Of a DNA stretch of 64,000 bases, positions 22,160 to 38,193 are shown one piece after another (the stretch's first letter is position 1; the number at the start of each line of letters is the position of its first letter). Origin of the DNA: Aurantiochytrium sp. KH105 (lineage: Eukaryota; Sar; Bigyra; Thraustochytrida; Thraustochytriidae); NCBI GenBank assembly GCA_003116975.1, contig BGKB01000039.1, forward strand, positions 62,001 to 126,000, given 5' to 3'. The translations under genes were made by a program, and so were the position numbers. The notes below the pieces were generated by a model that was not told the origin of the DNA, did not search any database, and worked only from the letters and a program-made list of their open reading frames with translations.

Positions 22160-24502
22160 TTAACCCTGAATAGCTTTGGCTGCCTTTTCTCGCATGGCGT
22201 CCATGCTCGTGTTGTCCTCAGCCCACTCGAGCACAAGGTGCCTTCCATAAAAGTGGGTATTGGTGAGCGCAGCAAAAGCAGTGCGCGCCTCCTGATGTGT
22301 GACGAAATCCACAAAAGCAAATCCGCGATGAGATCCATCCGGCTTCTTGGGAATACGAATCGAGTTGACCTGGCCATACGCCGAGACCAGCTGGCGCAAC
22401 TCTTTGCGGTTGGCCTCGAATGCCAAGTTGCGAACAATAATCTTGGTGGCCTCCTCCGCACTCTTGGCATCGGCGTGCACCAGCGTCGGCTTCGAAGACT
22501 GTTTACGTCCCGCGCCGCGAGGAGCAGCTGCTGCGCTCAAATCGACTGCGCGCTTGGAAATACTGATCTCGAGCTCGTGGTCGTCGAGACCCTGGCCACG
22601 TGCCTTGCGCAACGCCTTGCGACACGACTTGTCGTCCTTGAACTCGACGAAACCGAAGCCCATCGACAGCTCGTCGCGACCATTCTTGCGCGGAATCGAC
22701 ACATGGATGATGTTTCCTTTGCCAACAATCTTTTCAAAGAATTGCTGCAAGCTCGCCTCGCGCGTGTCAAAGTTCAAGTTCTTCACAAACAGCGTATGAC
22801 GATCCTCCACCTTTTGGTCGTCGCCAATGGGCACAATTCCACTTGGCTCTGCTCCTGCGTTCTCGCCAGCATCGGCCTCGGCCTCCTTGGCGGCCTTCTC
22901 GGCCGCGGCAGCAGACTTGATTGCCGCTTCGGCATCGGCTGCAGCAGCGCGTTTGCGAGCAAGACCTTCCTCATCGAGCACATTGGCAGGAGCCCATTCG
23001 AGATAAATGGGGACGCGCTTGTACCGCTTGTACGCCATTCCACTAAAGGCGCGCTTCGCGTTCTTGGGTTCAAAAAACTGAACCAGAGCCATAGTTTTCG
23101 AGGGAGGCAGAACAAACTTCTCTACATCTCCAAAGCGCGCAAACATCTGACGCAACTGAGACTTATCCGTCTCCGCAGGAAGGTTCTTGACCAAAAAGGT
23201 ATCCTTGCTGCGCTTCACGCTTGCCGGATCGCGCACTCCCTGCTCGAGCAAGTCGACGTCAACGCCCTCGTCCGCAAGAAAGGCCTTGGTTTCCGCAATG
23301 ACGCGCGTCTCACTCAGGGCCATGCGTACAGCGGCACTCGTCTTGTCACCCTCATCACCGCCCAAAAGAAGATCGCCCTTGCTCACACCGAGATCGTCTG
23401 CCACAGCGCCCACTGCAGCATCACCTCGCACGAAGAGAGCGTTCCAGCTGCGCGAGTCGGAAGCCTGCTCCTTGCGCTCCGCCTCCTTCTTCGCCTTAAA
23501 CGAAGTCGGCTTCCCGTTATCGCCGGCCCCATTTGCCTCACCGCTCTTTTCCTTTTCCTCCTTTTCCAGCGCGGGCATTACGTGCAAAAGACGGCCTTGG
23601 AAAATTTGCATGTCCATCTTTCCAATCGCTGTCACGGCGTTCTCGGGAATCATAAAGGTTACGTATCCGAAGCCGCGCGAGCGTCCGCTGTCATCTTTGG
23701 GAATGTGCGTTTCCGCAAGCTTGCCAAATCGCGAAAAGGCTGCATCCAGGTCCTCCTCAGTGGCATCAAAGCACAAGTTTCGCACAAAAAGGCGTCCGGA
23801 TTCTGCCGCAACAGCAACCGAAGGCGCCGCGCGTGCGCCATTGTCGTCCGAGGGCTTACCATTTTTAGAATTCTTGACGTCTTTGTCTTCGTCTTCGTTA
23901 TCCTTGCCGCTCTTTTGTTTCTCGGCAGAGACCTGATTGTCGCTGTTGCCCTTCGTCTCGTCGTCATCGTCATCGTCATCGTCATCCTCTTCCTCCTCCG
24001 CTGCCCCGGGGTTGTTGTTGTCCTCGTCGGCCCAGAACTGTTGCTGCCTTCGGGGCTGCATGAGTTTAAGGAATTCTGCGAGCTTCTTGTCCTCGGGCTG
24101 GCCGTTCCTCCGCTTCTTCTTGTTGCTGGTCGTGTCCGCGTCGGCGGCGCCGCCGGAATCGGCGCCACTCTCCGCGGCATCGCGGGCCCGCTTGCCGTGC
24201 TTGCGATCGAGGCGTTTGTCGCCGTATGGGAGAGCAAAGTCGATGGAGAGTCTGCACGTATCAAAGTATGACTTGTTGAAGTACTTGAGCGCCTCGCTGG
24301 CGTCATCGACCGTCCTGAACCCGACGAAGGCCACCTGCCGCGGCACGCCCGCGGCCGTCTTGAGCACCTTGGCGTCCGTCACCTCGGCGCCACGCGCCGC
24401 GAAGAACTCCTTCACGCGGCTCTCCGACACGTACTTGGGCACGTTCTTCACGCAGAGCCGCGAGCTCGGCTCCCGCGCCGCGCCGCCCTCCTGTCGCGCC
24501 AT
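22160..24502 (-). CDS. Mrd1/RBM19-like rRNA-processing protein with five RRMs
   Basis: This is a 780-residue protein whose ATG at 24502 lies ten residues before the first RRM. The RRMs are near residues 12-90 (RLCVKNVPK), 234-308 (RLFVRNLCF and RSRGFGYVTF), 432-505 (FLVKNLPAETDK), 569-650 (LFVKNLNFD and MGFGFVEF) and 685-762 (IIVRNLAFEA and RGFAFVDF). The RNP1 and RNP2 aromatic residues are visible in most of them. Acidic linkers (around 180-225) and a Lys/Ala-rich linker separate the domains. Five RRMs with this spacing match yeast Mrd1; animal RBM19 has six. Mrd1 binds pre-rRNA and U3-containing SSU processome particles and is needed for 18S rRNA cleavage in the nucleolus. The third RRM is degenerate in RNP1, as in the family. 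Confidence 0.85.
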   Translation of the reverse strand: MARQEGGAAREPSSRLCVKNVPKYVSESRVKEFFAARGAEVTDAKVLKTAAGVPRQVAFVGFRTVDDASEALKYFNKSYFDTCRLSIDFALPYGDKRLDRKHGKRARDAAESGADSGGAADADTTSNKKKRRNGQPEDKKLAEFLKLMQPRRQQQFWADEDNNNPGAAEEEEDDDDDDDDDETKGNSDNQVSAEKQKSGKDNEDEDKDVKNSKNGKPSDDNGARAAPSVAVAAESGRLFVRNLCFDATEEDLDAAFSRFGKLAETHIPKDDSGRSRGFGYVTFMIPENAVTAIGKMDMQIFQGRLLHVMPALEKEEKEKSGEANGAGDNGKPTSFKAKKEAERKEQASDSRSWNALFVRGDAAVGAVADDLGVSKGDLLLGGDEGDKTSAAVRMALSETRVIAETKAFLADEGVDVDLLEQGVRDPASVKRSKDTFLVKNLPAETDKSQLRQMFARFGDVEKFVLPPSKTMALVQFFEPKNAKRAFSGMAYKRYKRVPIYLEWAPANVLDEEGLARKRAAAADAEAAIKSAAAAEKAAKEAEADAGENAGAEPSGIVPIGDDQKVEDRHTLFVKNLNFDTREASLQQFFEKIVGKGNIIHVSIPRKNGRDELSMGFGFVEFKDDKSCRKALRKARGQGLDDHELEISISKRAVDLSAAAAPRGAGRKQSSKPTLVHADAKSAEEATKIIVRNLAFEANRKELRQLVSAYGQVNSIRIPKKPDGSHRGFAFVDFVTHQEARTAFAALTNTHFYGRHLVLEWAEDNTSMDAMREKAAKAIQG

Positions 24503-24909
24503 CGCGCTCGTGCAACGCAACGCAACGCGACGCAACGCAACGCAACGCGAGCTCGGGCGTCGTCTTCGTCGCCGCCGCCGCCACCAGAACTGGGTCTGTC
24601 TGGCCAGAGAGGAGTCCGGGCCTTTCATCCGCGTTCCTCCTCGTTCCTCTGCGCAACCTCTTTTCGCGCAACGCATTTTCCGGCCTCTTTTATTCTATTT
24701 TTTTATTCTTCTCCCGTTGAGGCCTACAACGGATCGTCGGCGCGGCTTGGCACTGACTGCACTGGGTTTGCGTGCATAATATGAGCGCTCGCGCGGAGCG
24801 AGGAAGCTTGGATTTTGGTGGCGAGCGTTGCGCTTGCCGGTGAAGAGGACGGACGACAGGTCCGACTTGATTTGCTTCTGCGATTCTGTATTACAATTGG
24901 GGCCAGACG
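24503..24909. other. Divergent promoter region with GCAAC repeats
   Basis: This spacer between the Mrd1 and acidic-protein genes contains GCAAC pentamers at 24512-24550 in the Mrd1 leader, a CGCCGCCGCC run near 24570 and a T-rich patch at 24690-24712. No gene was seen. Confidence 0.55.
24512..24550. repeat. GCAAC pentanucleotide repeat
   Basis: Seven to eight GCAAC/GCGAC units lie immediately upstream of the Mrd1 start codon, probably in its leader. Confidence 0.85.
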
Positions 24910-26532
24910 ATGGAGACGTACTGCGAGAACAACCTCGAGGCCGCTTTTGAGAAGTGGTCGCAAAAGAGCGACTATGTTTCGATCGAGGATCTCGAGTGCG
25001 TCCTTGCCGATCTCCCGAAAAATAAGAGGTTTCGTACCTGGCTTCCGATGGCAGCAACCATGGTCCAGGACGCTATCCAGCGGGGCGATGTGGATCCAAA
25101 AAAGGGCATTAAACGCGACGCCTTCTTCGCACTCATGACTCACTATTTCAAGTGCGCCAAAAACGATATGGCCGAATCCCAGCCCCCCACGCAGAGCTCA
25201 AAGTCATCAGAAAGTACACAATTCGATATGCACCTCGACCTTGACGCTGCTCAAAAGGAACTCGATGACGCGGCGGGTTCTCCGCGAAATGCAGAGACCG
25301 AAGAAGTAGATTCTTCACCCGTGCCAGCTGCAAGCAATTTCAGAGTCGGTATTGTGGAAGTTCTTTCATCCGATGACGATGGAGATGATGGAGATGAAGA
25401 GCATGACCAAGACGATCTTCCCTCCATCCACTCCACAAGTAGCGCAGTACATCACGATGTGCACGATCCATCATTCCAAGCCGAAAATCTTCAAGAGGTC
25501 GAGAATGATGGTAAGACGGAAAGCGCGGCCTCACATGACGCTAATCCAGCATCTCAACACGATAATATATCCGTCGAAAGCGAAAGTGCTGGTGTTCAGT
25601 GTGAAACCAAGTCGGTGATCGGTGACGAAAAAATCCGTGACATTGAAGCAACGGATGCCATCAAGAAAACGCAGGCAAGCAGCGAGAACATGTCGACTAA
25701 AGAGGAATTCCAAGAAGAAGAAGAAGGCGATGAGAGTAAGCTGATGATGCTTGAAGATGATGATGCACCAATAAAGAAAGAAACCACACCAGAGGAGGAG
25801 GAGGAGGAGGAGGAGGAGGCAGAGGACAACAATAAAAGTTTCGCCGATCAAAGTTATTGCTCCGAAGATACTGAAGTCGGCGATGAAAATCAAAAGATCT
25901 CGCGAGAGGACGAAGCACTTACCGAGTCTTCATCTTTGCAGACTGGAAACAAAGAGGAGCATAAACAGGAGGAAGAGAAGGAAGAAAAAACCAGCCGTAA
26001 AACGCGAAAAGACCTTCCTCCCTCCACGTCTGCCATGGCAATGCTCGAGCAAGGTGAGAACTGTGCACTTGCACAAGAGCCTAGCAAGGAAAGTTCTATG
26101 TCAGCAAGAAGTCCAAATGCACAAAACGATTCAGCTCTCTCCAAGAAAGACCAGGATGATTATGAAAGCAAGAAAGACAACAAGAAAGACGAAGCGACTC
26201 TCAAGTCTCTTGCCGACCAGCTGCAAGACGTGAAGCTTCGTCACGTGGAGGAAACTGAAAAGTCCGAAATAAAGAGAGATCTCGCGCCGCATCTGCGTGA
26301 TATTGAGGCGATGCAGGACAAGCAAGTCGAACAAGTAAAGGATGAGAAGAAGAAAAAGAAGAAGAAAGCTTGCAAGACCAAAGATAGGCCCACTGAACAC
26401 CTGATTGCGGAGAACCGTGAATTGCGAACAATGCTAGCTGTTGCGCGTCTCGATCTTTCCAAGGCTCTCGAAGAGATAGAATATTGGAGAATTCGCGCTG
26501 AAGCCCTTCAGCGTTGCTTGCAGTCGGACTGA
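24910..26532 (+). CDS. Acidic protein with N-terminal helical domain and C-terminal coiled coil
   Basis: This is a 540-residue protein. Residues 1-75 form a compact, mostly helical region (LEAAFEKWSQKSDYVSIEDL, then MVQDAIQRGDVDP) that resembles an EF-hand-like pair without a canonical calcium loop. Residues 75-480 are very acidic and probably disordered, with Glu runs near 295-310. They hold many Ser/Thr-Glu/Asp pairs that would suit casein kinase 2. A Lys run (KKKKKKK) near residue 485 precedes a C-terminal coiled coil starting ENRELRTMLAVARL and ending near the stop. The gene is convergent with the giant Tudor/EF-hand gene, 261 bases apart. I do not recognise a family. The layout (N-terminal module, acidic spacer, coiled coil) suggests a scaffold. 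Confidence 0.7.
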   Translation: METYCENNLEAAFEKWSQKSDYVSIEDLECVLADLPKNKRFRTWLPMAATMVQDAIQRGDVDPKKGIKRDAFFALMTHYFKCAKNDMAESQPPTQSSKSSESTQFDMHLDLDAAQKELDDAAGSPRNAETEEVDSSPVPAASNFRVGIVEVLSSDDDGDDGDEEHDQDDLPSIHSTSSAVHHDVHDPSFQAENLQEVENDGKTESAASHDANPASQHDNISVESESAGVQCETKSVIGDEKIRDIEATDAIKKTQASSENMSTKEEFQEEEEGDESKLMMLEDDDAPIKKETTPEEEEEEEEEAEDNNKSFADQSYCSEDTEVGDENQKISREDEALTESSSLQTGNKEEHKQEEEKEEKTSRKTRKDLPPSTSAMAMLEQGENCALAQEPSKESSMSARSPNAQNDSALSKKDQDDYESKKDNKKDEATLKSLADQLQDVKLRHVEETEKSEIKRDLAPHLRDIEAMQDKQVEQVKDEKKKKKKKACKTKDRPTEHLIAENRELRTMLAVARLDLSKALEEIEYWRIRAEALQRCLQSD

Positions 26533-26793: not shown

Positions 26794-29700
26794 TTATGAA
26801 TTGAGGAATTTCATGCTGACCTTGAGTCGAGTCCCGAGCTGCAAAATGAGGTCGTCTCCACCAGCAGCCTTGTTTTCGGGCTCGGCCTGCTGCAGACCCA
26901 GCCTTTTTTCAAAGTTCGAAACAAGATGCAAAAAGGCAAAAAAGTTGCGCTTCTCAAGTGGGCTCGCCGTCTTCTCAAGCCACTCGCCCACAGAACCCTT
27001 GGGCGCAAGCGGAATCTTGCCGTCAGGGACAATCAATCCTTCGGTCCAATCCCCGAGGAATGCCGACTCGAGCCCCGAACTGTTCCGATCGAGTAGCTGC
27101 ATGTTCGAGTTGCGCTGCGCATTTTCGTCGCTTGATTCTTCCCCCAGGGCTGGCGCCCCTGCCAGCGGCTTGGGACCAAAAGCACGCGCAAACTCTACAA
27201 AGCTGATCTTCCCATCACGGTCAACATCCACGCGTCGGATGAGCTCTTGTGCTTCTTCCCGACTCACGGGAAAACCAATTTTGAGCATTGCGCTCACCAG
27301 CTCGACAGAAGTGATCTTGCCGTCCCCATTACGATCAAAGAGCTTAAAGCACTCGCGCATTCCAGCACCTTGCTCCGTCATTGACGCCACGAACTGCATA
27401 AGCCGTCGTTCAACGCCATACACTGCATCGTCTTCGAGCGAGAGGAAGGAAACGAACTGCTTGTACGCGAAGCGGTCCTCGCCCTTGAGATCAAATCGTG
27501 CGCACAAACAGGCCAGATCCTCGTGTGTAAGAGCCCAGCCCTGGTTCGATGCAACTTTACGAAGGCTGCGCTTGCTTACGTATCCCTTGCCATTCTTGTC
27601 AATGTTTTTGAAGGCCTTGAGGATCGTCGTGTACCCTGTACGCTTCTGCATCGCCATCTTTCGAATTTTGTGCCGAATATCGCTTTCCATCTGACCTGCT
27701 GATGTGGTCCCCACAAGCGCACCAGATGCACTTAGCGCCCACTGATCACGATCCGAACCACGTGTGACAAACATGAGAAAGTGTCTGTAGTCCATCTTGT
27801 GACCCTTGTGGTCGGTGTCGAGCTTGGCAAGTACCTTTGTGACTTCTTCGGGAGTCAAATCGAAGCCAAGACTCTCGAGAGCTCGGCTCATTTCCGCATG
27901 CGAAACAAATCCGTCCTTATCCGTGTCAAAGAGCTCAAACGCATCACTGTAGTCGGCGGCTGCGCCCGAGCTTAGCGCATCAGACACCACGTGTCCAAGC
28001 TTGCGCAGAACCTGGAAAACGAGTGGATCTATGCCCTCTTTTTCCATGCGCTCCCGTTCTGCGCGTAGCGCGGCAATACCCTTTTGAATGTCGACGTTCG
28101 AGATAGCACGTTTCCATCCAGGGGCGTCTGCCTCTGCATCATGATTTCGGCAAAACTCGACGACCTCCTCGAACTTGATCTTGCCGTTGTCTCCAAGAAA
28201 GTTGGCGAGAACTTCAAGCAACGCTGGTTTCTCTGCGCGCTTAATGGACGCAACCTGCGCCAGCATGTCTGCAAGCGCCTTGCGCTCCACGCATCCATCG
28301 CCGTCCTTATCCAGCTTTTCACGGATCTGGGCTTCGACATCATGCTCAACCATGGCTCGCTTCAAACGTGGTAGAAGCCTTCCCACGCGTGCTGCATGAC
28401 TCTCATCGTCTTGCGTTCCGCTTGCAGCCTCTTTGCATCCGGCGACCAGATCTCGGTAAAAGATCTTGGACCGCGTCCCGCGACCATATTTGCGAACGAG
28501 CTTGGCCTGAAGATTTCCAGAAATCCTCTTACGGATGCCCAACTTTCCGAGCACCCGCTGCACCTTGCTTGCTTCCAGGTACCCACGACCATGATTGTCT
28601 GCGCGCTCAAATACGGCCTTGAAGCGTTTGCGCGAGTCCTTGAGGAGGATCTTGCCGACATAGTTTTCGAAGTTGCGCACAACCACGCCTCCCGCCAAAG
28701 CATCTTCGGCATCCGAGTCCCACTCTTCGTCACCATCAACGTCACTCTCGGACCACTCGCTTGCACTTGGTGACGGGCTTCGCGACGGAAGACGTCTCCG
28801 CCTCGGACTGCGACGTCTGGAGCTTCGCCTCTCCTCGCCTCTTCGAGGCGAGCTGTGCCGGTTCCGAGAACGTCTCGAATCAGAAGCGCTGTCCGCCTCC
28901 GAGTCGTCCTCAGAATCATCCTCGGAGTCGTCGCGAGCTCCGCGTCGGCTCCCCCGGCTTCTGCCCCGCGAACCCGATTGATGGCGTTTGAGAAGCTGCA
29001 CGAATTCGCGATAGGACAATCGACCGTCCCCATTACGGTCCAGAAGTCTAACCATTGAACGGAGCTCCACCTTGGTGTACTGCAGACCGAGCTTGTCGAG
29101 CGCATGACCGAGCTCAATCCGACTAATGTACCCATCTCCATCCACGTCAAAGGAGTCAAAGACTTCTTGATAGTTGCGCATTGCACCCTTGCGAAAGCCC
29201 TTCTTAAAAATTCGTCCAAGCAGAGCGGCAAGTTCCTCGCCGCTCTCGCTTTCCTCGTCAGTTTCTGTTGCCCTCGCCCCGCGTCGAGGACTGCGGCCCC
29301 GCGCACCAGCGAGACGACGGATCAAACGCGCGTCAACATGCGTCTCCTTATCACCATCGTCATAGTCAATGTCAAATGTACCGTTGGCTCGAACGCGAAC
29401 AATCTTGCCCTTGTAGAACTTGGTTTTTCCTTTGAAGCGAGCTTCGACGCGCTCTCCTTGGCGAAATCCCCTTTCTTGGTCTTCGGATCCGGATGATGGA
29501 CTCTCTTGCGGAGACCGCCGCGCGCGGCTACGGGGCGAGCGAGACCTTGTTGGCGATCGACGCGAGGTTTTTGTTCGAATCATGTTCCTCTTGACGCGAA
29601 GCTCGCGATCGCCGTCGTCGTAAAGAATGGCGCACGATCCGTCGCGGTTCACGCGCGTGATCTTGCCAGGGTAGTACTTTTGGCCTCCTCGAAAACGCGC

Positions 29701-32700
29701 TTCAACACGATCCCCCTCGTGAAGAGCTTCTTCCCTTCTGTTGTCTTCGTCTTCGTCGTCATCATCCTCCGTCTCTGGCTCACGTGTGCGACGCGCTCGC
29801 GGGGATTGGGAACGACGGCTACCTTGGTCCAAAAACTTGATGCTTTCGGGCTTGACGCGACGCTCAAAGTCCCCGTCGTCATACTTGATATCGCAGGATC
29901 CGTCGGGATATGCCCGTTCTACGACACCCTTGTAAAATCGCTTGCCATTCTTGTACCTTGCTTCGACACGGTCACCGCGTTCGGCGGTACGATGTTTGGT
30001 ACGAGGAGAACGCGCTCCAAGCGTGCGAATATTGCGCTTGACGACATTGCGTTCTTTGTCGCCATCATCGTAGGAGATGTCATAGGTGCCATCCCCATTG
30101 ACACGAGTAATTTTACCCTTGTACATTTTGGCTCCTCCGCGGTATTTCGCCTCCACTCTGCTTCCCACTTGTAGCTCATCCTCCTCACTACTCGCATCGC
30201 CAGGGCTGTCAAGGCTTCGGATTTTCGATGATGGAACCATTCGTTCCACGTCCCCGTCGTCATATGCAATGTCCGCGGATCCGTTGCTATGGACACGTGT
30301 GATCTTGCCCTTGTAATACTTGGCCCCGCCTCGGAATTTGGCCTCTACACGAGATCCCACACGAAGTTTCGTCCCCGCGCTAGCCTCGCCAGACTCGTCA
30401 ACGAGTTTGCGAACATTTTCAGGACTGATACCCTGCTCGCGGTCACCATCATCAAAGTTAATGTCAAAGCTTCCATTGCGGTTCACGCGCGCGACCTTGC
30501 CCTTGTAAAATTTCCTTCCCCCTCGGAACCTCGCCTCTACACGATCACCTCGTTGAATGTCGCTCGCTTGATCTTCGTCCGCGCTATCAAAGCCCGCACG
30601 GTTTCGGGACGGAGAATGTCGAGCGCCGCCGCCTCCATCAAGCGGACGGATTTTGCTTCTTTCAACGTGCGTTTCGCGATCACCATCGTCGTAGTGGATG
30701 GCATAGGTGCCGTCCGGGTTTTTCCGAACAATTTTCCCCTTGTAGTAGCGTCTCCCGCCCTTGAAGAGCGCCTCGACTCTATCTCCGCGCGCCAATTCTG
30801 GTGACCCTCCGTCCTCCAGATCTGTCTCCGCGCTGGTCGGAGCGTCTTCCAGACTGCGAACGAGGCTCGCCGGCACTCGAGTCTCCCGATCGCCGTCAAC
30901 GTAGTGGATGTCATAGGTTTCGTCTGCATGCGCACGAGTAATCTTACCCTTGTACCATTTCCTTCCGCGGCGGAATCGAGCTTCCACCGCAGTACCAACG
31001 CGCAAGAGGCTGGGTGCCGTGGATCCAGCCGTTAATTTTCGAATATCTTCAGGACGAACGCCTTGCTCGCGGTTGCCGTCGGTGTAGGCTATGTTGTACG
31101 TGCCATTGGGGTTGACGCGCATGATCTTTCCTTGAACAAACCTTCTGCCGCCTTTGTACCTTGCTTCGACTTGGTCGCCTCGTTGAAAGCCGGCATCGGC
31201 CTCGCTTTCCTCGCCGCTAATCATGCCATCATTGTCAAGAGCTCGAATAAGTGAAGCGTCAACCGAACGCTCGCGGTCGCCATCGGCGTAGTCAATGGCA
31301 AAAGTGCCATCGCGATTGTCACGAACGATTTTTCCAGCATAGAACTTGCGTCCCTTGCGGAATTTTGCCTCCACATTTTGCCCGACGCGAAAAGAAGCGC
31401 GAGCGCTTGATCTGCCACCTCCTCGAGGGCTTGCCCCGCCATCATCTGGCTCAAGAGACCGGACCATGTGGGCCGGGACCTTGAGTTCGCGATCTCCGTC
31501 ATCATAGCTGATGGCAAAGGAGCCATCGGGATTTGCCCGCATGACTTTGCCCTTGTACCACTTTGATCCGCCCCGAAAGCGTGCTTCAACCCGGGATCCT
31601 CGCTGAAGCTCTTTTTCATCCCCTCGGTTACGACCGAAACGGCCTCTGGTGTGAGGATTCGCATCATCGTCGTCCGTGTCGTCCGCATCAAAGGTGGCCC
31701 GCCCACGAGGCTGCCTGCCTCCCGTGCGATTTGACGAGGCCGGAGCACGTCGCACAAAGCGAGCCGCAACACGAGTCTCGCGATCGCCGTCATCGTAAGC
31801 AATGTCGCAAGCCCCACTTGCGTACACCTTTTCTACGGTGCCAGCGTACCATTTTTTGCCGCGTTTGTAAAGAGCTTCGACACGGTCACCGCGACGCAAT
31901 GGTCCTTGATCTTCGCTGATCGCCCCTGCATCGTCGCCATCAAGATCGCTGTCAGCTTGACTGTCGAAGCGCGTTCCGCGACGCGAAGGCGAGCGAGATT
32001 TGCGTCCAGCGCCGCCCTCGCTGGCTCCAAGGACGCGAATGCTGGCAGGCGCAACGCGGCGCTCAAAATCTCCATCCGCATAGGCGATATCGCACGATCC
32101 ATCAGGATGAACGCGCTCAACAGTGCCTTTGTAATACTTGCGACCTCCCTTGTAGCGCGCCTCAACTTTGTCGCCTTCGCGTGGGCCGTCCTGACTATCG
32201 AATCGATCATCATCATGATCGTGATCTGCGGCGCCCGAGCTAAGTGCATCGACGGTGGGCAAGGCAGCCCGAACAAGCGACGCAGAGACGCGTGTTTCGG
32301 TGTCACCGTCGTCGTACATAATGTCGTAGGTGCCATCAGGTCGTTTACGCTCGATGACTCCAGGAACGTACCTGCGTCCGCGACGCATGCGCGCCTCGAT
32401 GCGCTGGCCGGGCCGAAAACTCGCCTCTCCATCGCCGACGAGATCTTCTGTAAACTTGCCTCGACCGCCGCCGGAACGTTTCTTTTGCGGTGAGTTTCTG
32501 CCACTTTGCCCGCTGGCAATTCGGATCGCCTTGACAAAGATGCCGTAGCGCACCTTACCTTGTGCTCCGCCGAGTGACCTCGAGACATCTTTGAGCACAG
32601 AGAACGGAATACCAAAACGTGCGCGCTCAACATTTCGTTCAAATTCGCGTGCTGAGATTTTCCCCGTCGCGTCTTGATCGAGCATTTCAAAGTTGTCTTG

Positions 32701-33627
32701 CAGGTCCGTGATCGTCTTTTCGGTAGTGTTGATAATTCCGAGCATGTCAGCAATCTGAGCTGCTTCTTGATCTTTGCTGCTGCCGGATGGCCCAGCCGTT
32801 CTGCCACCAGAACCCGTATCGCTGCGCCTACGAACAAAGGATGCTTGAACGCGCGGCTCTGTGTCGCCATCGTCGTAGGCGATATCGTACGTCCCGTCGC
32901 GATTTACACGTTCGATCCTCCCCGCAAAGTAGCGTTGCCCGTTTTTGTAACGCGCTTCTACGAGGTCTCCGCGACGCAAGGGCTCTTGCGCATCTTCGCC
33001 GTCCGTGGTAAGGTATTCGTCGTCTTCAGTAGCGAAACCATCTCCTCCCCTTCCGCCAGCTCCCCTTATACCGCCTCCAGATCCGACCTGGGCCAAGAGC
33101 TGTTGATAGTCGACGGTCGTGCGGCCGTCACCAAAAGTCTGCATGGCTTCTCGGAGGTCGCCCGGATTAAAGTCGATCTTGAGACCCTTGAGAACGCGAC
33201 CAAGGTCGCGAGCATGGATAGTACCATTCGCTTTTCGATCAGCAGCTTCAAAGGCTTGAAGGAAGCGGTCCTTATCTCGCTGGGAGTTCATTTTAGCCTC
33301 GAGCTTGTCGATGAGCTCGATGCGCGAGCCCGCACCCGCTTTAGGCTTTCGGACAGATCCTCCGCGCGGCGAGATTTGCATGTCATCTCCGGCGCTCACA
33401 GCCTCGCCCTTGACACGGATGGAGCGCTCTGCGACGCCGCTTTCAAAGTCGCCATCGTCGTAGTCGATGTCGTACGTGCCGTCCCTGTTGGCGCGTGCAA
33501 TTTTACCAGCATACCAGCGTGGGCCTCCCTTGAACTTGGCCTCGACGCGTGTACCTTGGCGCAAAGCGCGGCCGACACCGCCGCCGCCGCCGCCGCCACC
33601 ACCACTGCTTCTTCTTGCGGGCGGCAT
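26794..33627 (-). CDS. Giant protein: sixteen Tudor-like repeats plus EF-hand arrays
   Basis: This 2277-residue single-exon protein starts at the ATG at 33627, next to a Gly run. Sixteen copies of an approximately 50-residue unit occur, typified by GDRVEARFRGGRKFYKGK followed by DGTYDIxYDDGDxExxV and ending in I/V-R. This is a Tudor-like five-strand barrel signature. Copy 1 is near residues 23-72 and copy 16 near 1389-1438. EF-hand-like segments sit between copies 1 and 2 and between copies 2 and 3. After copy 16 the C-terminal 850 residues hold EF-hands with loops such as DVDGDGYISRIE, DRNGDGRLSYRE, DKDGDGCVERKA, DTDKDGFVSHAE, DRNGDGKITSVE and DVDRDGKISFVE, plus degenerate ones. Linkers are Arg/Ser-rich and acidic. 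Calcium binding is likely. The Tudor-like ligand, and whether it acts in nucleus, cilium or cytoplasm, is unknown. Confidence 0.85.
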   Translation of the reverse strand: MPPARRSSGGGGGGGGGVGRALRQGTRVEAKFKGGPRWYAGKIARANRDGTYDIDYDDGDFESGVAERSIRVKGEAVSAGDDMQISPRGGSVRKPKAGAGSRIELIDKLEAKMNSQRDKDRFLQAFEAADRKANGTIHARDLGRVLKGLKIDFNPGDLREAMQTFGDGRTTVDYQQLLAQVGSGGGIRGAGGRGGDGFATEDDEYLTTDGEDAQEPLRRGDLVEARYKNGQRYFAGRIERVNRDGTYDIAYDDGDTEPRVQASFVRRRSDTGSGGRTAGPSGSSKDQEAAQIADMLGIINTTEKTITDLQDNFEMLDQDATGKISAREFERNVERARFGIPFSVLKDVSRSLGGAQGKVRYGIFVKAIRIASGQSGRNSPQKKRSGGGRGKFTEDLVGDGEASFRPGQRIEARMRRGRRYVPGVIERKRPDGTYDIMYDDGDTETRVSASLVRAALPTVDALSSGAADHDHDDDRFDSQDGPREGDKVEARYKGGRKYYKGTVERVHPDGSCDIAYADGDFERRVAPASIRVLGASEGGAGRKSRSPSRRGTRFDSQADSDLDGDDAGAISEDQGPLRRGDRVEALYKRGKKWYAGTVEKVYASGACDIAYDDGDRETRVAARFVRRAPASSNRTGGRQPRGRATFDADDTDDDDANPHTRGRFGRNRGDEKELQRGSRVEARFRGGSKWYKGKVMRANPDGSFAISYDDGDRELKVPAHMVRSLEPDDGGASPRGGGRSSARASFRVGQNVEAKFRKGRKFYAGKIVRDNRDGTFAIDYADGDRERSVDASLIRALDNDGMISGEESEADAGFQRGDQVEARYKGGRRFVQGKIMRVNPNGTYNIAYTDGNREQGVRPEDIRKLTAGSTAPSLLRVGTAVEARFRRGRKWYKGKITRAHADETYDIHYVDGDRETRVPASLVRSLEDAPTSAETDLEDGGSPELARGDRVEALFKGGRRYYKGKIVRKNPDGTYAIHYDDGDRETHVERSKIRPLDGGGGARHSPSRNRAGFDSADEDQASDIQRGDRVEARFRGGRKFYKGKVARVNRNGSFDINFDDGDREQGISPENVRKLVDESGEASAGTKLRVGSRVEAKFRGGAKYYKGKITRVHSNGSADIAYDDGDVERMVPSSKIRSLDSPGDASSEEDELQVGSRVEAKYRGGAKMYKGKITRVNGDGTYDISYDDGDKERNVVKRNIRTLGARSPRTKHRTAERGDRVEARYKNGKRFYKGVVERAYPDGSCDIKYDDGDFERRVKPESIKFLDQGSRRSQSPRARRTREPETEDDDDEDEDNRREEALHEGDRVEARFRGGQKYYPGKITRVNRDGSCAILYDDGDRELRVKRNMIRTKTSRRSPTRSRSPRSRARRSPQESPSSGSEDQERGFRQGERVEARFKGKTKFYKGKIVRVRANGTFDIDYDDGDKETHVDARLIRRLAGARGRSPRRGARATETDEESESGEELAALLGRIFKKGFRKGAMRNYQEVFDSFDVDGDGYISRIELGHALDKLGLQYTKVELRSMVRLLDRNGDGRLSYREFVQLLKRHQSGSRGRSRGSRRGARDDSEDDSEDDSEADSASDSRRSRNRHSSPRRGEERRSSRRRSPRRRRLPSRSPSPSASEWSESDVDGDEEWDSDAEDALAGGVVVRNFENYVGKILLKDSRKRFKAVFERADNHGRGYLEASKVQRVLGKLGIRKRISGNLQAKLVRKYGRGTRSKIFYRDLVAGCKEAASGTQDDESHAARVGRLLPRLKRAMVEHDVEAQIREKLDKDGDGCVERKALADMLAQVASIKRAEKPALLEVLANFLGDNGKIKFEEVVEFCRNHDAEADAPGWKRAISNVDIQKGIAALRAERERMEKEGIDPLVFQVLRKLGHVVSDALSSGAAADYSDAFELFDTDKDGFVSHAEMSRALESLGFDLTPEEVTKVLAKLDTDHKGHKMDYRHFLMFVTRGSDRDQWALSASGALVGTTSAGQMESDIRHKIRKMAMQKRTGYTTILKAFKNIDKNGKGYVSKRSLRKVASNQGWALTHEDLACLCARFDLKGEDRFAYKQFVSFLSLEDDAVYGVERRLMQFVASMTEQGAGMRECFKLFDRNGDGKITSVELVSAMLKIGFPVSREEAQELIRRVDVDRDGKISFVEFARAFGPKPLAGAPALGEESSDENAQRNSNMQLLDRNSSGLESAFLGDWTEGLIVPDGKIPLAPKGSVGEWLEKTASPLEKRNFFAFLHLVSNFEKRLGLQQAEPENKAAGGDDLILQLGTRLKVSMKFLNS

Positions 33628-35589
33628 CGAAGGACTGACCTTGATTCAAGACCTGAGTTTGTTCTGTTTCTCTCTCGAGTCGAGTCCACCTCGGCCGCTA
33701 GGTGGTCCTCGACTTTTTACTGGCCAACCTTCTCGCCTGCCGGGGTCATCCACGGCGTAAGACAGTCAGCGAGCAAGCGACAGAGGGCAGGAGCCCAGTA
33801 TTATCAACATAAACATCATCATCATCTTGGGCATCGTCGTCGTCGGGTAAAAAGGGGCTCGAGAAACCCACTTGTGAAGTGACCCAAATAGAGGCCCAAC
33901 GGCTCTGCACTGCTTCCGTGCGCGTTGCGCGCGACGCTTACGGACGTTACATGTGGAGGTCAGCGCCGGCGCAGGCCGGCCAAGCCGGCCAAGCCGTGCC
34001 GCACGCTGACTGGCTGATTTGCTCGCTCGCCATACTGGCTGCGGACAAGTTCGTCGCTGCGACTGTCGAGTGATTGTGTATGGGATCGACGGATCATCAC
34101 GAAGAGGGCTCCCTATCTTTCAGGAGCGCAAAAAACGGCGTCGTTTCGGTCCCAGCCCAAAAGTAGCCAGGCTACTGCTTCGACTCGTAGTAAGCCCAGA
34201 GAGACCGATTCTTCAATCAGCGTTGTCGGTGCAGCAGCCAGAAGGATCGATATCGATCAAGATCGATCGAGGTCATCGGTACACATTTACCCGACTCCTC
34301 TCCCACTGGCAGCCAGCGAGACGAAAACGAAAGATAGTAGAAGACAAAGATGAGAACGCGAGCAAGCTACACGACTCCGCCGTCTTTCCGGCAAAGCTCA
34401 GGACACCTAGCAGCTGCCACTGCTGCCAACTAAGCCGTCTTCCTTTCTCCGAGAGCGCCGCGTTGCGGGAGCGCTCTCGCCTCACTTCGAGTTGAGAGCG
34501 AGCCCAGCGCACCCAGTTTGTTCCGTGTCTCATATTATCCACAAAATGATCATTGAGGTTGGTTTACACAACAGGACCCCGCGCATGCTTTGAAATTTGC
34601 ACTTGGAGCTAACGACCGGCCAGCCCGAAAGGCACGTTCGCGGTACTCTCGCCCGAGCCCGCGCTCCGGAACCGTCGTGCCGCGGCGCCTCTCCATTTCC
34701 TCCTGTCTGCCCGCCTCTGCGCTCCCGCTCTCCCCTCGCTCCCTCGCCTCCCTCCGCACGTTACTTGCGCGCTCCGCCTCTTCATTCTCCAAGATCAGCG
34801 GCATAAGCCCAAAAAAAAGAAAGAAAAAAAAAGAGCCCCGGGGCGAGGAAACCGTCTGGAGGGGCATGCCGCACGTCTTCCTTTCTCGGCTCGCCCTCCT
34901 CGCCCTCAGTCCGGTACGGCCTTTGCACCTGAACAATAACACGATGCGCGGACGGGACGCGGCGGCGGGCGGGCGCGTTGAGGCGCTCGACTCCGGAGCG
35001 GCCCCCGCGGCGGGCGAAGGGAAAAAAGCAGGGCGGCGGGGAGGCCGCAGCAAACAGGCAAAAAGCAGGCGGCCACGAGACCGCGGCGAGCCCCGCGCCT
35101 CGCTCCCTCCCTGCCTGCCTCCGCGGCCCCGCTCCCGCCCGCGCTCCCGCCCGCGCCCGCCCGCCCGCGCGCACGCTCGCCCGCGGCGCGGACGCCGGGC
35201 CCGCGCGCGGAGACGGCGCGCACGCCCGCCCGCGAGGAGACGCGGCGCGCGCCGGCGGTCGCGGCGCGGCGCCATCGCGCATCGATCGCGAGGTCCGGGC
35301 AGAGGCAGGAGCCCGCGGTTTTTGAAAACTGGCGAAACGCGAGGGCGAACATAGAGGCAACGCGCGCGGCGACGGCGACGCGGACGGCGACGCGGACGGC
35401 GAGGAGCACGTGGTGCGAAGCGTGCACCTAGGCCTGCCCTCTCGCTCCCCCCCGTGCGGCCTCTCCCTGGACGAAAGAAGCCGAGCGGGGCAGCAGAGCA
35501 GATCCGTCTTGCGAAACGCGGCGAAGACGACGACGACGACAAAGACGACGACAAAGACGAGGCTAGCAGGAGCCGTGCGCGAGGTCGCA
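33628..35589. other. GC-rich divergent region upstream of Wee1-like gene
   Basis: This lies between two divergent genes. The right half (34600-35560) is extremely CpG-rich and open in several frames on both strands; the translations are Arg/Ala/Pro-rich and unlike any family. The frame of the kinase gene is open upstream to about 35410 but has no ATG before 35590. A/T-richer DNA at 34050-34360 may contain the promoter of the giant gene. No RNA gene was seen. Confidence 0.5.
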
Positions 35590-38193
35590 ATGCCCGGAGG
35601 CGTGGTCAAGGCGAACGCCAGCAATGGCAGCAGACTGCTGGACTCGCCGAGCGGTCGCGCGCAATCGCCCGCGTGGAAACGTCGCAAGATGCATACGCCG
35701 GTGCGGTTCCGTCGATCCTCGACGCCTCGCCTCGATGACCTGGACACGATGGCGCTAAACGATGGCGAGGAGTCCAGAGTGGAGCGACCCGACAGCACGC
35801 GAAAAGCGCTCTTCGACACACCAGACTCCAAGGAAAACTCACGCATGCGCAGAAACGTAGACTTTGGCACGCCCGAGAGGGACTCGGACGGCGTGCTGGA
35901 CGGTATGCGGCCGTCTAACGTGAATCCGTTTTACACAAACTTGAACGATTCATCCATTTCGAACGGGAGCGCGGCCAGCGCCTGTCCCTCGCAGGCGCCG
36001 GGACAGAGCTTTGCTCGAGACGACTCCCCCGACGCGACCATGCTCTTTGCCAGCCCCGGTACGGCTCACCGCCGAAGGCGTACACGCAAAGGCCTCATGA
36101 CCCATTCCTCGAGCGCAGGCTCGATACTTAGCGACGAACAAGAAACCCATCGCGATACCTTCCGCAACAAGAGCAGACACAGGGTCGAGAGGGAGAGCGA
36201 CAGCGACGACGACAACGACGATGACGATGACGATATCGATGACCAAGTCAACGGCAAGGCGCCCCTAAACTTTTCCTCAATCTCGCTGCTTCCAGGCCAA
36301 AGTGGCGACCAGACAGCACGCAAGCCATTGAGGAGACGACGTGGGGGCAGCGGCCTGACCGAGGACGAAGGAGGCAGGTTCGGGTCTTTGTTCTTTGACG
36401 CCGGCGAGTCGCCAGTCCCCGTAATGCCGAGCACCGCCAAGAAACCCGCCGCATCACGCGAAGCACCTTCGACGCCAGTTCTCCCGCAAAGCCCGGCATC
36501 TCCATGCTCAAATCAGAGCATGTCGCCTTCTGACCTTTGCAACCAAATGAAGCGCACGTGCAGCGTCTCCGGGGTCAAGGGATTTGCCGCGCGTGAAATG
36601 AGCAGTGGCGGCTCACGAAGCGCCAGTAGCTATGGCAGCCGGAGCATCGACTCGCCAGCGCAAACGGACAACAACCAGCACGACGACTTGATTGACGAAG
36701 AGGAAGAGATCGCCTCGAGCGTCCCGCGGCGCTTTTTGCGCGACCACGCGACGGCAAGTCCTCTACCCCCCCAACATTCCCCGCTACCCGCTCGAACACC
36801 TTGTCCAGCATCGACAATGCGAGGCAGGGCCGCACGTCGCGCAAGAGGCATATCCGAGTGCTCCTCGGGCGGCCCGGTCGTGCGGTCGCGATTCAAGGAA
36901 GAGTTCGAAGAAGTTGGAATTCTTGGCACGGGTACCTTTGGAACAGTCTTCAAGTGCCGCAACAGGCTCGATGGCTGTCTGTATGCCGTCAAGGTGACCA
37001 AACAGCGATTTAAAGGCCGCGCCGATCGCGAGCGCGTGCTCAAGGAAGTCTTTGCGCTCTCGGCTCTGTGTAATGAAGAGGATAGTCCACACATTGTGCG
37101 CTACTTTGGCGCCTTTGTGGAGGATGGCCGTCTGTTCATCCAGACAGAACTCTGCGACAAGAGCCTTCAGGACATGATTCGCAGCGAGACGTACCCCAAT
37201 GGACTCGAAGCTGCGGCTCGAACGCTCGCGCGTCAGGTCCTCGAGGGGCTTTCGAGTCTTCACAAGCACAACCTTGTGCATCTCGACATCAAGCCAGCCA
37301 ACATTTTTGTGAAAAATGGCGTCTTCAAGGTCGGTGACCTTGGTCACGCCTGCCTGGCGCGCATCCAGGGTTCAGAAGAGGAGAACCCAGTCGGCGGCGC
37401 AACGCCTGCGTCGGGCGCTGGCATTAGCAGGACAAGCCCTGCGCTTGATTTCGCTGCAACGGCTTCGCAGTCGCCTCTCCGTGCGGACTCGCGGCTCCCT
37501 CGTCCGCCGCCCCTCGGCACCTGCTCGCCTGACAAGAGTCGTCGCCCGACTTCAATTTGCGATGCGAGCCGAACCCCTCTTCGACGAATGGGATCGCTGC
37601 TCTCTGTGGACGCCTCTTCCCCGTCGATGCTTATGTTCGATTCGGACAAAAAAGCGCCGCGTCGTGGCCAGCAGCAAGAACAGCCGGCGTACGTGCAAGA
37701 CGTGGAGGAAGGTGACTCGCGGTACATGGCGATGGAGATTTTGAACGAGGACTACAGGCAGCTGACCAAGGGCGATATTTTTTCGCTGGGCGCGTCGCTT
37801 TACGAAATGTGCCTTGGTCACGAGCTTCCTGCAAATGGCCCCGAATGGCATGATATTCGGGCAGGTAAATTGAGCCAGGAGGCCCTCTCGCGCGTGTCGC
37901 CCGACATGCAGTCGCTCATCCGTTTGATGCTGGGGAAAGACCCGGTTGCGCGTCCGAGTGCTGAAGCCTTGCTCGTATCTGGTGGTCCCGGTGGTATTCT
38001 TCGCACGGCCTGGGAGAGCCAGCTTGCGCGCGAAAAGGCTGCTGCAGATGAATATCGCAAAGAGCTAGCCCGGATGAAGGCTGCGAGTGCATTTGCCAAT
38101 GCCGGCTACTTGCATCAGCAAGTAGCCGGTGGTTTTGATCCGGGTTCGTTCGAGGACGCCAAGTATCGAATGCGGAGGTCTAACACCATGTGA
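35590..38193 (+). CDS. Wee1-type protein kinase
   Basis: This is an 867-residue protein; the ATG at 35590 is the first in frame. Residues 1-430 are disordered, rich in SP/TP sites that would suit CDK feedback phosphorylation, with an Asp tract near 210. The kinase domain starts near residue 440. Its Gly loop is GTGTFGTVFK, the ATP-binding Lys lies in YAVKV, the catalytic loop is HLDIKPANIFV (about 564), and DLGH (about 582) replaces DFG as in Wee1 and Myt1. VEEGDSRYMAMEIL (about 705) is the Wee1 signature after the activation segment. Between DLGH and VEEGD about 115 Ser/Pro-rich residues are inserted, where human Wee1 has about ten. The enzyme would phosphorylate the inhibitory Tyr of CDK1 to hold cells before mitosis. 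Confidence 0.85.
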   Translation: MPGGVVKANASNGSRLLDSPSGRAQSPAWKRRKMHTPVRFRRSSTPRLDDLDTMALNDGEESRVERPDSTRKALFDTPDSKENSRMRRNVDFGTPERDSDGVLDGMRPSNVNPFYTNLNDSSISNGSAASACPSQAPGQSFARDDSPDATMLFASPGTAHRRRRTRKGLMTHSSSAGSILSDEQETHRDTFRNKSRHRVERESDSDDDNDDDDDDIDDQVNGKAPLNFSSISLLPGQSGDQTARKPLRRRRGGSGLTEDEGGRFGSLFFDAGESPVPVMPSTAKKPAASREAPSTPVLPQSPASPCSNQSMSPSDLCNQMKRTCSVSGVKGFAAREMSSGGSRSASSYGSRSIDSPAQTDNNQHDDLIDEEEEIASSVPRRFLRDHATASPLPPQHSPLPARTPCPASTMRGRAARRARGISECSSGGPVVRSRFKEEFEEVGILGTGTFGTVFKCRNRLDGCLYAVKVTKQRFKGRADRERVLKEVFALSALCNEEDSPHIVRYFGAFVEDGRLFIQTELCDKSLQDMIRSETYPNGLEAAARTLARQVLEGLSSLHKHNLVHLDIKPANIFVKNGVFKVGDLGHACLARIQGSEEENPVGGATPASGAGISRTSPALDFAATASQSPLRADSRLPRPPPLGTCSPDKSRRPTSICDASRTPLRRMGSLLSVDASSPSMLMFDSDKKAPRRGQQQEQPAYVQDVEEGDSRYMAMEILNEDYRQLTKGDIFSLGASLYEMCLGHELPANGPEWHDIRAGKLSQEALSRVSPDMQSLIRLMLGKDPVARPSAEALLVSGGPGGILRTAWESQLAREKAAADEYRKELARMKAASAFANAGYLHQQVAGGFDPGSFEDAKYRMRRSNTM

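Follow-up and report, generated by a model that had tools for sequence, protein, structure and literature searches.

A 64,000-nucleotide stretch of the Aurantiochytrium sp. KH105 genome (assembly GCA_003116975.1, contig BGKB01000039.1, positions 62,001 to 126,000 of the forward strand; hereafter the window) carries a gene for a giant protein in which sixteen compact Tudor-like units are joined to an array of EF-hands. The open reading frame (ORF) lies on the minus strand at 26794..33627, encodes 2,277 amino acids (aa) and is free of internal stops. Judged from the comparison of its two haplotypes (ratio of nonsynonymous to synonymous substitution, dN/dS), the Tudor array and the EF-hand array are one selected gene. 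We found that the pairing of Tudor-like units with EF-hands is a recurring one and that, as far as the sequences tell, the sixteen-unit array with interspersed and terminal EF-hand pairs is the new part. We tentatively propose that the protein may be a Ca2+-responsive, multivalent and probably methyl-binding scaffold, for which the flagellum or cytoskeleton is a likelier site than chromatin. The features of the gene, in window positions, are as follows.

26794..33627, minus: ORF with sixteen Tudor-like units and an EF-hand array (open frame, allele, dN/dS 0.05-0.19)
33409..33564, minus: Tudor-like unit 1 (unit pattern, hidden Markov model (HMM), alignment)
33073..33300, minus: degenerate EF-hand pair, aa 110-185, between units 1 and 2 (EF-hand_6 18.3 bits, cut-off 25)
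32824..32979, minus: Tudor-like unit 2 (unit pattern, HMM, alignment)
32503..32721, minus: EF-hand pair, aa 303-375, between units 2 and 3 (EF-hand_6 18.4 bits, below cut-off; canonical loop at aa 317)
32263..32418, minus: Tudor-like unit 3 (M and V at two cage positions)
32029..32184, minus: Tudor-like unit 4
31744..31899, minus: Tudor-like unit 5
31453..31608, minus: Tudor-like unit 6
31237..31392, minus: Tudor-like unit 7
31033..31188, minus: Tudor-like unit 8 (V at one cage position)
30850..31005, minus: Tudor-like unit 9
30640..30795, minus: Tudor-like unit 10
30403..30558, minus: Tudor-like unit 11
30211..30366, minus: Tudor-like unit 12 (modelled together with unit 13)
30019..30174, minus: Tudor-like unit 13 (modelled together with unit 12)
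29830..29985, minus: Tudor-like unit 14
29569..29724, minus: Tudor-like unit 15
29311..29466, minus: Tudor-like unit 16
28984..29178, minus: C-terminal EF pair 1, aa 1484-1548 (both loops canonical, Pfam)
28738..28980, minus: RS/SP-rich linker, aa 1550-1630
28423..28644, minus: EF-like pair 2, aa 1662-1735 (recognised by inspection alone)
28144..28365, minus: EF-like pair 3, aa 1755-1828 (non-canonical loop at aa 1773, inspection)
27763..27966, minus: EF pair 4, aa 1888-1955 (loop at aa 1901 canonical)
27430..27642, minus: EF-like pair 5, aa 1996-2066 (Pfam EF-hand_11 29.3 bits, cut-off 21.7)
27172..27375, minus: EF pair 6, aa 2085-2152 (both loops canonical, Pfam)
26797..27084, minus: C-terminal tail, aa 2182-2277 (96 aa; genome matches to this gene and its allele only)

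Comparison of haplotypes points to a single selected gene

The frame of the ORF is stop-free over 2,283 codons. That of its allele in the second haplotype, on contig C29, is open over 2,325 codons and encodes sixteen Tudor-like units together with six EF hits at matching positions. The genome that holds the window (76 megabases, 367 contigs) looks diploid, with the Tudor-unit matches falling in contig pairs; such pairs are written below in the form C8/C218. We compared the haplotypes over 2,274 aligned codons in three classes, namely the Tudor units, the C-terminal EF part, and the rest (linkers, N-terminus and interspersed EF segments together). At a synonymous divergence (dS) of 0.08-0.11, dN/dS was lowest in the Tudor units (0.046; 816 codons), followed by the C-terminal EF part (0.120; 824 codons) and the rest (0.190; 634 codons), and all eight gap columns fell within the rest. 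The low ratios in the Tudor half and the EF half indicate that both are under purifying selection in one frame.

A first reading made from the letters alone (the sequence-only reading) had assigned the Tudor-like and EF-hand parts to a single protein, and this is borne out, as both lie in the same protein and are selected in the same frame. It is very improbable that two adjoining genes or a mispredicted fusion give a false appearance of one protein. The frame is stop-free in both haplotypes, dN/dS is low in both halves, and EF segments sit within the Tudor half too. On the open frame, the allele and the dN/dS values we rejected two separate genes.

Sixteen compact Tudor-like units, with a barrel fold predicted for one pair

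The units start at aa 27, 222, 409, 487, 582, 679, 751, 819, 880, 950, 1029, 1093, 1157, 1220, 1307 and 1393. With an HMM built from these units, 16 of 16 scored at an independent E-value (i-E) < 1e-3 in both haplotypes, and the number of sixteen in the sequence-only reading therefore stands. Each unit has about 50 residues, with a consensus close to xRxGDRVEARFRGGxKxYKGKIxRVNxDGTxDIxYDDGDRExxVxxxxIRxL (some first residues were read as M in the alignment). Unit-to-unit identity is 40-69%, with a mean of 53%, so the array did not arise by a recent tandem expansion.

The Pfam scan of window proteins covered 25 of the 34 matching families. Tudor_5 reached 254.5 bits (cut-off 31) in 14 stretches, independently of the unit HMM. 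Agenet (139.9), SGF29_Tudor (123.4), Tudor_3 (121.8), 53-BP1_Tudor (93.2), DUF4537 (58.7) and PTM_DIR17_Tudor were likewise over their cut-offs, and Tudor_2 was below (24.3 versus 31.4). The sequence-only reading had named DUF4537 as a candidate profile. PF00567 (TUDOR) scored 47.1 against a cut-off of 23, in a single stretch over half of the profile (53-106 of 121). As the units are barrels of about 52 residues parted by linkers, and PF00567 matches by half its profile only, we rejected extended Tudor domains of the staphylococcal nuclease (SN)-like type; chance repeats were rejected on the Pfam and HMM scores.

The structure predicted for one adjacent pair, units 12 and 13, has five strands in each unit (mean predicted local distance difference test score, pLDDT, 86.7; predicted template modelling score, pTM, 0.46). 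The unit-pair alignment behind this model took 11 of the 13 pairs with a spacing below 100, the longest spacings (95 and 97) being excluded. The model superposes on 53BP1 structures over 50-51 residues with a root-mean-square deviation of 1.1-1.2, and its fold matches include PHF1 and 53BP1. By prediction, these two units are five-stranded SH3-like Tudor barrels. The Tudor-like character first read from the repeats is thus upheld by profiles over cut-off and by the predicted fold of one unit pair.

We likened the cage sites to the 53BP1 aromatics W1495, Y1502 and F1519 and the acid D1521; the offset of this numbering agrees with the fold alignment, which places model residues 1-52 on residues 1485-1535 of 1xni. 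Two adjacent units had been expected to show a barrel with an aromatic cage. The barrel was predicted, and as to the cage, four of five positions are kept in 14 of 16 units, the exceptions being units 3 and 8.

Among solved structures, sequence matches cover unit positions 3-49 (KDM4A), 4-48 (SGF29) and 3-38 (53BP1) of 52. CPAP/Sas-4 was rejected as a true relative: the top five sequence rows align only unit positions 24-50, which corresponds to a 'DGT..Y.DG.(E)' hairpin pattern, and the structural matches of the unit model, within the families that this comparison contained, are Tudor-like.

EF-hands among and behind the units

Six loops, at aa 317, 1494, 1530, 1901, 2098 and 2134, meet the strict canonical pattern, consistent with the calcium loops noted earlier. 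By eye we observed about eight pairs of EF motifs, two interspersed and six C-terminal, and Pfam sees four of the C-terminal pairs; EF-hand_7 reached 189.9 bits (cut-off 30) in 4 stretches of the C-terminal 824 aa. The sequence-only reading had placed EF segments in the two spacers that flank unit 2, towards units 1 and 3, and in a C-terminal array. The positions were right, but the interspersed pairs are degenerate and fall below the Pfam cut-off when scanned as isolated segments, and only the second of them has a canonical loop. The best solved relative of the C-terminal EF part is EFCAB6 (104.7 bits in sum, versus 87.6 for the best calmodulin fusion).

Unit-bearing relatives in the same genome

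The unit query gave at least 131 matches in the genome (150 of 191 candidates scored), in 16 gene pairs, and the Tudor_5 model added one more pair, C181/C70. Of these 17 genes we read the DNA of 16, all but C2/C194, and in nine cases only a part of it. Tudor-unit arrays in the genome have 16, 20, 13 and about 12 units, so the low copy number stated earlier for such barrels (one to a few) does not hold as a rule.

EF-hands over the curated cut-off were observed in the window gene and in four other unit-bearing genes, paralogues B (C8/C218), C (C274/C70) and D (C44/C108), and C6/C15. Paralogue B has 20 units (mean identity 82%) and a SAM domain; its EF-hand_6 score is barely over the cut-off (25.5 versus 25), EF-hand_7 is below, and a cytidine-deaminase-like stretch at its N-terminus is also below cut-off (22.7 bits versus 25). 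Paralogue C combines 13 units with EF pairs and three PUB stretches, and paralogue D about 12 units with an EF pair and a SAM domain. Paralogue D has an aliphatic residue (V, L or I) at the first cage position in every row where that position aligns, which in C44 is 12 of 14 rows, and keeps the remaining three positions. C6/C15 has EF-hands, ankyrin, WW and a TRAF-type finger, with one unit below the Pfam Tudor_5 cut-off, and C83/C85 has one unit and EF-like stretches under the cut-off. EF-hands were not seen in the DNA read of ten other unit-bearing genes (the second TBCC gene without a Pfam scan), which are an ARL13B-like GTPase, two TBCC genes, a HECT protein, an APC10/SPRY giant, a ubiquitin-like giant, C17, C95, C367 and C181. 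The relatives discussed below lie at the following positions.

L029:1434-9116, plus (G000:C8): paralogue B
G000:C274:167382-187349, minus (6,656-codon frame), and G000:C70:8001-37800 (8,945 codons): paralogue C
L032:2260-3813, minus (G000:C196): ARL13B-like GTPase with two C-terminal units; allele pieces G000:C15:123947-124519 and 125171-125470
L028:1504-2664, plus, and L063:1-2499, plus: two unit-bearing TBCC-domain genes, the first RP2-like and the second its nearest paralogue

The nearest solved neighbours of the ARL13B-like GTPase are 4m9q_A, an ARF-like GTPase (107.6 bits), and 5di3_B, which is ARL13B (107.3), followed by ARL3 (85.0); its next match within the genome has only 36% identity. 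For the one-unit TBCC protein the nearest solved structure is XRP2/RP2 (107.8 bits versus 85.5 for TBCC). Its TBCC domain is most similar to that of the paralogue C33/C47 (46% identical), which has units in frame directly after that domain (genome-wide E 2.6e-5 to 1e-3; three by the window HMM). Of the two genes, one has its unit upstream of the TBCC domain and the other downstream. Three other TBCC gene pairs do not coincide with genome-wide unit matches. IFT57 is present in the genome, over its cut-off, and a PfaA-type polyunsaturated fatty acid synthase match reaches 930 bits, under the cut-off of 1010, with sub-cut-off matches also in 11 of 14 control genomes, so that it gives no more than a hint. 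Judged from such features of the genome and from the ARL13B-like gene with its C-terminal units, the source is likely to be a thraustochytrid-like stramenopile.

Relatives in archaea, bacteria and viruses

Unit relatives in GTDB contigs occupy 18 loci, nine bacterial and nine archaeal. The nine archaeal proteins form one family of 352-369 aa, 65-86% identical to its first member. Cysteines C9, C12, C23 and C26 are invariant, two Tudor units are confident, and an EF-hand pair lies at the C-terminus; the EF model matches 8 of the 9. In a Pfam scan of three of them, one was over the Tudor and EF-hand_6 cut-offs, one over Tudor only and one over neither, with both domains visible below cut-off in the last; a zinc ribbon was below cut-off in all three. 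One archaeal locus is titled Thalassarchaeaceae, a Poseidoniales family. Of 292 Poseidoniales genomes, an evenly drawn subset of the order, 99 have a match at E 1e-3 and 83 have one at <=1e-20; among the matches listed, at least 10 are near full length and many others come in two pieces, one reaching the EF end.

L043-L046, L048-L051 and L054 (e.g. L043:3512-4567, plus): archaeal Tudor/EF-hand proteins with CxxC pairs, Tudor-like barrels and an EF-hand pair

The architecture of the window protein had been called undescribed. Our literature searches agree, in that they gave no paper on Tudor units with an EF-hand array in work on protists, thraustochytrids, stramenopiles or Poseidoniales, and no description there of the Poseidoniales zinc-ribbon-like/Tudor/EF-hand protein; in a passage of PMC9258230, EF-hand is mentioned in the reference list only. 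The pairing itself, however, occurs in four other genes of this genome and in Poseidoniales archaea.

Bacterial frames ending in two Tudor-like units lie at L047:3605-4144, L038:1271-4153 and L037:1-324 (all plus). By eye, those of L038 and L047 have a signal peptide-like start, and L037 adjoins genes resembling, on inspection, phage terminase and portal genes. In the viral collection, two units were found at a single locus, whose neighbouring genes appear on inspection to be of phage type. A viral or bacterial origin of the array is unsupported, as the phage-type contig and the nine bacterial loci have one or two units only in the stretches fetched.

Possible function and site of action

We infer the ligand, the Ca2+ response and the site of the protein as follows. 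Flexible, charged linkers that look phosphorylatable would connect the sixteen compact Tudor barrels, and these would bind many copies of a ligand, probably methylated, weakly and cooperatively. The EF-hand array and the EF pairs among barrels 1-3 would sense Ca2+ and thereby alter shape, partners or packing. The most likely site would be a flagellar, basal-body or other microtubule compartment, where methyl-arginine proteins are plausible ligands. The calcium-responsive multivalent scaffold of the sequence-only reading was a fair inference from barrels and EF-hands in one protein; of its two sites, chromatin or a cytoskeletal or ciliary structure, the ARL13B-like and RP2-type fusions tilt the choice to the cilium without settling it.

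Three observations point to flagella, namely the units on the ARL13B-like GTPase, the units on RP2-type proteins, and EFCAB6 as the best relative of the EF array. ARL13, as a guanine nucleotide exchange factor (GEF), and RP2, as a GTPase-activating protein, act on ARL3 in cilia, and EFCAB6 is an axonemal protein. PMC8358228 also describes Arl13 as a GEF.

Several results weigh against a methyl-binding scaffold in the flagellum. Units are also found on the HECT protein and the APC10/SPRY giant, ubiquitin-system domains occur in some of the unit-bearing genes, and two units lie on the C181 protein, which is acidic, lysine-rich and looks nuclear; the unit is therefore no ciliary marker. The unit of the RP2-like protein is below the Pfam cut-off (26.3 versus 27.2) and is without the first cage aromatic, which tells against methyl binding in that protein. 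At the site of Y1523, the fifth cage residue of 53BP1, the window protein has D in 15 units and N in the remaining one. The EFCAB6 match consists of ten weak pieces repeating the same query parts (best piece i-E 9e-5) and so may reflect only the presence of many EF-hands; for the same reason we rejected EFCAB6 orthology. For the C83 gene, over the part covered, the best solved match is a calmodulin fusion (6e-4) and not EFCAB6, which argues against similarity to EFCAB6 as a family trait. EF-hands are abundant in this genome (939 first-look candidates; at least 148 matches, 148 of 150 scored), so the pairing with Tudor units is less improbable than it appears. Finally, the Tudor gains by Arl13 in two stramenopiles are called independent in PMC8358228.

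A nuclear scaffold is a possible but rather unlikely alternative, in which the array would read methylated histones or methyl-arginine ribonucleoproteins and, with the RS/SP-rich linkers, form a condensate resembling chromatin or speckles that nuclear Ca2+ would tune. The RS/SP-rich linkers and the basic runs resembling nuclear localization signals, which also count against a flagellar site, would fit it, as would Tudor units with a net charge of +64 over 816 aa, conserved cage-equivalent residues, unit sequences that match the chromatin readers KDM4A, SGF29 and 53BP1 over most of their length, and the fold matches to PHF1 and 53BP1. However, no chromatin enzyme, PHD finger or histone-fold family was found among the Pfam families covered, the unit-bearing relatives include ARL13B-like and RP2-like proteins, and EF-hand arrays are unusual in chromatin proteins. 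We consider it unlikely that the protein is a cytosolic or cortical structural spacer, whose barrels would be beads of a long elastic or packing element without methyl binding and in which Ca2+ would act on the EF ends. The aliphatic first cage position of paralogue D and the very large arrays and frames of the family are consistent with such a spacer; the conservation of four cage residues in 14 of 16 units despite a mean identity of 53%, and the lowest dN/dS in the Tudor units, argue against it.

If the flagellar scaffold is nevertheless what the gene encodes, it might belong to a wider methyl-reader system of thraustochytrid-type stramenopile flagella, in which a compact Tudor module spread onto ARL13, RP2 and giant Tudor/EF-hand arrays, and arginine (or tubulin lysine) methylation would be read together with Ca2+ to organise the axoneme, the basal body or ciliary traffic. 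This wider proposal is doubtful. We know of no dedicated ciliary reader of methyl-arginine, and members of a cage-conserving barrel family on ARL13- and RP2-type proteins and giant Ca2+-binding arrays, all in one genome, would be concrete candidates. Methyl-arginine proteins are reported at the flagellar base and tip in PMC6406257. Even as a nuclear protein it would have a compact-Tudor array of unusual size compared with the arrays known to us.

Surroundings of the gene in the window

The neighbouring genes in the window are listed below. An Rfam scan of the window gave zero matches, and ARAGORN gave zero transfer RNA genes.

22160-24676, minus: protein with five RRM stretches (Pfam RRM_1, 235 bits), presumably Mrd1-like
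24910-26532, plus: acidic-looking protein of 540 aa, convergent with the Tudor/EF gene (no Pfam match)
35410-38193, plus: protein kinase (Pfam Pkinase, 147 bits) whose N-terminus is long and of low complexity; oriented divergently to the Tudor/EF gene

Comparison with known systems

The window protein shares with the compact Tudor readers (53BP1, KDM4A, PHF1/PHF20, SGF29, SETDB1) the same five-stranded barrel, by prediction and Pfam, and in 14 of 16 units has aromatics and an acid at the four cage-equivalent positions. Unlike them, it has sixteen copies, EF-hands and D or N at the fifth cage site, with no chromatin enzyme or PHD finger in the Pfam scan. Drosophila Tudor and the TDRD scaffolds have many extended (SN-fused) Tudor domains, eleven in Drosophila Tudor; the multi-copy scaffold logic is shared, whereas the units here are compact, of the Tudor_5/Agenet type, and are accompanied by EF-hands. 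EFCAB6 has a long row of EF-hand pairs, like the C-terminal part of the window protein, and, to our knowledge, no Tudor units. Arl13 of Aurantiochytrium limacinum, a thraustochytrid, bears a C-terminal Tudor domain, according to PMC8358228. This is the same kind of unit, and the equivalent gene here is C196/C15, with two C-terminal units; Arl13 differs from the window protein in being a GTPase with few units and no EF array. The Poseidoniales protein has Tudor-like barrels followed by an EF-hand pair, as does the window protein, but is only about 355 aa long, with two confident Tudor units and N-terminal zinc-ribbon-like CxxC pairs. The pairing in the two may reflect either shared descent or convergence, and its recurrence in Poseidoniales suggests a reusable logic in joining Tudor units to EF-hands.
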